A stretch of 64,000 nucleotides of DNA from Caenibius sp. WL (lineage in GTDB: Bacteria > Pseudomonadota > Alphaproteobacteria > Sphingomonadales > Sphingomonadaceae), in contig NZ_CP081844.1 of assembly GCF_019803445.1 (NCBI RefSeq), forward strand, positions 1,872,501-1,936,500, in the 5' to 3' direction. Under the pieces are notes generated by a model. The model was not told the DNA's origin. It was given only the letters and a program-made list of their open reading frames with translations, and did not search any database. The position numbers were made by a program, and so were the translations under genes. This document shows, piece after piece, positions 805 through 41,732 of the stretch (position 1 is the first letter of the stretch; each line of letters starts with the position of its first letter).

Positions 805-836
805 GAAAAAACCACCCCGTGCGGAACACGGGGTGG
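805..836 (-). terminator. Rho-independent terminator (minus strand)
   Basis: Positions 812-821 and 827-836 form a perfect 10-bp GC-rich stem around a 5-nt loop. On the minus strand the stem is followed directly by a run of T (complement of the A-run at 805-811). It therefore ends transcripts coming from the sapC side, about 250 nt beyond the sapC stop codon. That leaves a long untranslated, structured tail or a separate small RNA upstream of it. Confidence 0.8.
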
Positions 837-1085
837 CCAAGGTTCAGGGAGGAGGTGCATTCGCATGCACCTGCTCAGCAGGCCATGAGGGAAAACCTGC
901 CGAACCTCTGTAAGGTAAGTATTCCTCGCCAATCTTGCAAGCTTTTCGCAGGCTTTGCGGCAACCGGCGAGGAAATCGCGCCGGAGTGTTCCGGTTCTGC
1001 CTGAACCGGCTCCACTTCCGGATCATCTTTTGTTTGGCGCGATTTCCAGGTCGGCAGGTTTCCACCTGCTTCGAAATCGCACCAG
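837..1085 (-). ncRNA. candidate structured RNA or long structured 3' UTR of sapC
   Basis: This 315-nt gap (775-1089) has no credible gene, but almost every part of its minus strand folds. In 5'-3' order on the minus strand: stem 1073-1080/1039-1046 capped by 64-69/54-59 (both +1000) with a GGAA loop; stem 1013-1021/981-988 enclosing perfect 7-bp hairpin 1003-1009/991-997; 9-bp stem 966-974/922-930; a three-way junction closed by 902-907/840-845 whose arms are 896-901/877-882 and 865-876/849-860, the latter with a GCGA tetraloop; then the terminator. One pair (901/877) is G-U only on the minus strand. I see no signature of RNase P RNA, tmRNA, SRP RNA or 6S RNA. Start and independence from sapC are unknown. 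Confidence 0.4.

Positions 1086-41656: not shown

Positions 41657-41732
<76 letters not shown>

Follow-up and report, generated by a model that had tools for sequence, protein, structure and literature searches.

A folded region between sapC and a convergent gene

The DNA directly after sapC in Caenibius sp. WL (positions 805–1085 of the window, the 64,000-nucleotide stretch analysed here) raises the question of whether one densely folded RNA occupies the whole space between two genes. The flanking genes are sapC itself (PF07277; 1090–1857, minus strand) and a convergent N-formylglutamate amidohydrolase (FGase) gene (PF05013; 1–774, plus strand, with its 5′ end outside the window). The first-pass annotation had described nearly all of the region as five helix modules of a single functional RNA on the minus strand. 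All the helices listed there were found at the positions claimed, and the strong minus-strand folding was confirmed: the minimum free energy (MFE) was −136.1 kcal/mol (z = −7.30), none of 200 dinucleotide shuffles was equally stable, and the plus-strand fold was less stable (z = −4.99). The modules do not belong to a single element. Positions 981–1085 are a repeat insertion, 922–974 are promoter DNA, and only about 806–908 are conserved RNA. An RNA spanning 805–1080 was rejected, because the modules within 981–1085 are repeat. The region consists of two unrelated neighbours, namely a copy of a small repeat dispersed in the genome and a gene for a small regulatory RNA (sRNA) that is conserved in sphingomonads.

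The repeat (981–1085, minus strand) is a dispersed two-hairpin unit of MITE/REP-like type, and it spans the proposed modules 1039–1080 and 981–1021. Aligned copies gave a full unit of about 107 nt with two hairpins and near-palindromic ends, which read CTAG...CTAG in the best copy. With this copy as the query, the own genome has eight copies and a related one has 14 or more, and a few were found in seven further genomes. When the region 805–1085 was searched against the own genome, six other partial matches appeared, every one of them to the 5′ part of the region. No copy was found after sapC in two congeners (G002 and G003), in which a few tens of nucleotides separate the sapC stop codon from the promoter, indicating that 981–1085 is an insertion. 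The unit resembles REP/MITE-type repeats in its short length, dispersal, paired hairpins, near-palindromic ends and multiple copies, and it shows the combination of a multi-copy, dispersed palindrome with empty sites by which such repeats are recognised; unlike them, several copies lack the second hairpin. The repeat is of mobile type, is separate from the sRNA and has no conserved link to it. Repeat copies were also seen at loci L095, L104, L110, L113, L117, L122 and L124.

Two exclusive folds had been proposed on the basis of a 12-bp helix between 971–982 (GGCGCGATTTCC, minus strand) and 1036–1047. The pairing is indeed perfect, and the alternative fold lies 1.7 kcal/mol above the MFE. The arm 1036–1047 lies within the repeat and the complementary arm 971–982 overlaps its 3′ edge, so that the two-state fold, including the apparent competition, is a by-product of the repeat. 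A switch as a conserved function was rejected, since one arm of the helix sits in a repeat without a counterpart in the two congeners.

The small-RNA gene and its promoter

The sRNA gene (806–908, minus strand; about 100 nt, with its 5′ end predicted within about 905–909) has the consensus order of hairpin P1, hairpin P2, unpaired linker CCUCCCUGAACCUU and terminator. P1 (873–905, minus strand) pairs GUUCGGCAGGUU (894–905) with GGCCUGCUGAGC (873–884) around the pyrimidine-rich loop CCCUCAU; over 100 sequences, 92.9% of its cells are paired, and all six modelled pairs show two-sided changes. P2 (853–872, minus strand) pairs AGGUGCAU with AUGCACCU around a GCGA loop (99.3% of cells paired; two-sided changes in 4/4 modelled pairs). 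The pairing region that follows, CCUCCUCCCUGAACCUUGG (837–855, minus strand), contains the core CUCCCUGAACC (841–851), which is invariant in 26 sequences and includes the anti-Shine–Dalgarno motif CCUCC. The intrinsic terminator (806–838, minus strand) is formed by GGCCACCCCGUG...CACGGGGUGG followed by six U residues, with 99.1% of cells paired and two-sided changes in nine of its 13 pairs. In the window copy, keeping the seed/linker single-stranded costs 2.7 kcal/mol, and the seed is partly occluded in the local MFE.

The test of conservation and covariation among sphingomonads that had been suggested for this region was strongly passed by the sRNA. A covariance model built from 25 sequences (R1) detected all 100 loci tested, with a worst E-value of 2e-9. 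In a structural alignment of 100 distinct sequences from a further model (R2), 97.6% of cells form standard pairs compared with 80.0% after shuffling, and 19 of the 23 pairs carry two-sided changes, with 420 double-change cells compared with 115 in shuffled data, counts that lean toward the structure as the alignment was fitted to it. None of 500 shuffles reached any of these pairing or two-sided-change figures, and sliding the partners by 1–3 columns lowered the pairing to 33–50%. A free MAFFT alignment and RNAalifold agreed with the R2 structure.

These alignments also bear on finer structural claims. The proposed three-way junction at 840–907 is the local MFE of this copy; its closing helix GGUUC/GAACC lies outside the conserved structure, and P1 in relatives aligns as a separate hairpin without that helix. 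GNRA loops, which had been taken as meaningful, were rejected as tertiary-contact motifs; they are not conserved, and the P2 loops vary among relatives. The proposal that the region encodes a functional RNA, perhaps a small one, that ends in a terminator of its own holds for about 806–908 and fails for the remaining modules.

The position between converging genes, and the fact that the terminator is the strongest helix, might suggest that the conserved part simply terminates both sapC and FGase transcription and includes no regulatory RNA. We regard this as highly improbable: the two upstream hairpins covary independently, the 11-nt unpaired linker is invariant and the promoter described below is conserved, none of which would be needed by a mere terminator, and the U-run works in one direction only.

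Motif searching in the sequences that precede 99 non-redundant loci identified a two-block motif with the consensus CTTGAA-N15/16-CCTATNTT, in which TTG is present at 98–99% and the distance to the RNA is nearly fixed. The corresponding elements in the window are a −35 element TTGCAA (935–940, minus strand) and, 17 bp from it, a −10 element TACCTT (912–917, minus strand). The position of these elements identifies the module 922–974, an imperfect dyad TTCCTCGCC/GGCGAGGAA around the −35 on the minus strand, as DNA of the promoter region, ahead of the predicted start of the sRNA. From this sequence pattern we infer that the sRNA is transcribed from its own promoter.

The −35 element lies within the loop of a long dyad in about a fifth (~20%) of relatives. 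Since strong dyads occur in only that share of loci, a general RNA structure at this position was rejected; the dyads that enclose the −35 could represent a sapC 3′ hairpin, or a regulator or cruciform site. In S. meliloti, mmgR is reported to have a dyad within its −35/−10 region (PMC8401924). At five loci with long dyads (L166, L129, L018, L031 and L012), the sequences are unrelated and the complementarity is kept, reaching 17 bp in L166. An RpoH promoter was also considered and rejected; the pattern CTTGAA-N15/16-CCYATNT has only three matches in the own genome, one of them directly before an hslV-like gene, and is a lead only.

DNA searches placed the sRNA in 24 of the 54 genera sampled. 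The exact 18-mer CCTCCCTGAACCTTGGCC from its pairing region was found in 120 or more stretches of a data set with one genome per species, almost all of them labelled as sphingomonads, and each of 80 loci among the matches listed has a single match. A convergent FGase gene lies within 600 nt in 72 of these 80 listed loci. In the loci examined, sapC and the sRNA share a strand, with the sRNA on the downstream side; sapC lies within 600 nt upstream in 49 of the 80 listed loci and about 700 nt or more upstream in many of the others. In some of the loci examined, the gene after sapC encodes a cytochrome b561-like protein.

This neighbourhood is relevant to the suggestion that 805–1080 is a long structured sapC 3′ UTR, or an sRNA processed from one, with a switch between two exclusive folds. 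The location directly after sapC on the same strand and the small energy difference of 1.7 kcal/mol between the folds would fit such a UTR. Nevertheless, 981–1085 is a dispersed repeat missing in congeners, a conserved promoter belongs to the sRNA itself, and many loci, including many of Sphingomonas, do not have sapC beside the sRNA. The UTR explanation is therefore not favoured, and we consider it very unlikely.

Relationship to the alpha-r8 RNAs

The alpha-r8 RNAs (MmgR, SisA–D) are mostly FGase-adjacent and have a single-stranded UUUCCUCCCU between the hairpin and the terminator (PMC12559287). The first-pass annotation could not match the region to RNase P, tmRNA, SRP or 6S RNA; taken as the lack of any known family, this was too pessimistic. 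With alpha-r8, represented by MmgR of Sinorhizobium, SisA–D of Caulobacter and RF00519, the window sRNA shares the layout of a hairpin, an anti-Shine–Dalgarno linker and a Rho-independent terminator, the linker motif CCUCCCU and the adjacent FGase gene. The best Rfam match near the sRNA is suhB (RF00519; 32.7 bits, E-value 7.5e-5 in 701 nt), which does not reach the gathering score of 41 bits; the listed relatives score 24–30 bits. In the window the 10-mer UUUCCUCCCU is incomplete: CCUCCCU remains and the preceding UUU is replaced (ACCUCCUCCCU). The full 10-mer occurs in some relatives, such as L027. Since both the Rfam score and the literal 10-mer failed, the sRNA represents a divergent branch that falls outside formal membership of RF00519. 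It differs from alpha-r8 in that P2 is a strong, variable and covarying stem, whereas alpha-r8 has a GCCC..GGGC hairpin, and in the addition of an invariant UGAACCUUGG extension and the covarying 5′ hairpin P1. A tRNA gene at 41657–41729 is the sole Rfam match at the gathering threshold in the window.

The kinship is supported by cross-detection, in that a model trained on one set of loci recognises those of the other. R1 detected 15 RF00519-matching loci from other families of the order (E-values 5e-12 to 2e-6) that were absent from its training set, and 11 of these 15 are convergent with FGase. Judged by sequence, their linker (for example, UUUCCUCCCUGAACUUGGGCC) is clearly the same element as that of the window. 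R1 matches occurred in 54 of 61 genomes of the order, and the model passed over most of the non-FGase RF00519 paralogues of Sphingomonadaceae. These comparisons identify the window sRNA, at the level of sequence and gene order, as the FGase-linked alpha-r8 counterpart in Sphingomonadaceae; we hold both the sRNA gene and the alpha-r8 kinship with high confidence. This branch may already be catalogued in the alpha-r8 phylogeny or in the cuckoo literature; a keyword search of one paper on Zymomonas sRNAs found no counterpart.

Other anti-Shine–Dalgarno RNAs were compared as well. The alpha-r14/NfeR1/cuckoo RNAs have three hairpins, each of which carries CCUCCUCCC (PMC10746234, PMC3927594), and this motif is present in the copy of this genome, while some relatives give sub-threshold ar14 matches. 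Membership of that family instead of alpha-r8 is nonetheless hardly probable. The window sRNA has one copy in the linker rather than three in hairpins, with CCCUCAU in the P1 loop; scores range from 21 to 33 against the RF02344 (ar14) cutoff of 58.8, with 21.4 bits in the window; and the FGase synteny fits alpha-r8. Co-transcription with a DUF1127 gene, as for CcsR/CIN1, was not found at this locus, where the neighbouring genes encode SapC and FGase.

The alpha-r8 branch described here stands beside a second RF00519-type gene. The own genome has an above-cutoff RF00519 match at C1:1326343–1326419 (L067:1501–1577; 61.6 bits), which reads CAUCCUCUCCCAAAACUU, given also as UGCCUUUCAGGCAUCCUCUCCC... 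and as UGCCUUUCAGGCAUCCUCUCCCAAAACUU plus a terminator; no FGase match was found at its locus. SuhB of Sphingopyxis granuli TFA is a 61-nt repressor that depends on Hfq and targets the thnR 5′ UTR (PMC6563040). It is a suhB-type sphingomonad sRNA like that of the window, but its length fits the paralogue, and on this basis the paralogue is probably the type studied as Sphingopyxis SuhB. The Rfam suhB model thus misses the FGase-linked counterpart in this family and matches the paralogue instead, and ‘suhB’ annotations in sphingomonads likely refer to a different gene.

Putative targets among TonB-dependent receptors

Sphingomonads play a major part in the degradation of pollutants and of carbon from plants. 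They have dozens of TonB receptors, and the choice among these receptors is poorly known. In Caulobacter, SisA represses TonB-receptor mRNAs by base-pairing ahead of the start codon through its core (PMC12559287). By analogy, the window sRNA would bind Hfq through its 3′ U-run, its CCUCCCUGAACC would pair with the Shine–Dalgarno region UUCAGGGAGG of target mRNAs, many of them for TonB-dependent receptors, and this pairing would block ribosome binding and translation as described for SisA. We consider it very probable that about 806–908 encodes an independently transcribed regulatory sRNA of the Sphingomonadaceae alpha-r8 branch, for which Hfq binding, Shine–Dalgarno pairing and TonB-receptor repression are predicted functions. 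The receptor-repression mechanism itself, modelled on SisA, is proposed with moderate confidence.

The 3.5-Mb genome has 70 Plug-domain (TonB-receptor) genes (L270–L339), and the reverse complement of the invariant linker is GGTTCAGGGAG. In the 35 nt that precede the chosen start codon, 10 of these 70 genes and 0 of 82 others have an uninterrupted complementary match of at least eight bases (Fisher P = 3e-4, with the starts of the control genes chosen crudely). Such sites include TTCAGGGAGGAG (L314) and TTCAGGGAGG (L274 and L299). A control in which only the bases 5′ of the Shine–Dalgarno part were permuted gave P = 0.003–0.006. Duplex energies over all TonB receptors showed no significant difference in their means, and only the contiguous-match tests were significant. 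These data suggest that a subset of TonB receptors is targeted.

The unremarkable duplex energies also leave a substantial, if lesser, probability that the main targets of the sRNA are not TonB receptors but other GGGAGG-led mRNAs, or that it titrates another sRNA or a protein. Matches to the extended pattern also lie before genes for other secreted and metabolic proteins, and MmgR of S. meliloti affects PHB granules (PMC8401924). Against this, the extended complementarity is enriched at TonB-receptor starts under two controls, and SisA provides a precedent. For receptor targeting we tentatively propose a broader role, which is well short of established: the FGase-linked alpha-r8 branch may act as a family-wide post-transcriptional controller of an unusually large set of TonB receptors beside the SuhB paralogue, with the extended, lineage-specific seed CUCCCUGAACC reading bases 5′ of the Shine–Dalgarno sequence and thereby selecting receptors. 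With its conservation, its linkage to FGase and its fixed seed, the sRNA is a testable candidate regulator of these receptors.

Across 40 genomes of the family, the pattern TTCAGGGAG-N3-12-ATGA gave 28 matches compared with nine for a permuted pattern, and TonB receptors of other genera were among the matches. As a separate observation, GGGAGG-rich ribosome-binding sites stand before many TonB-receptor starts.
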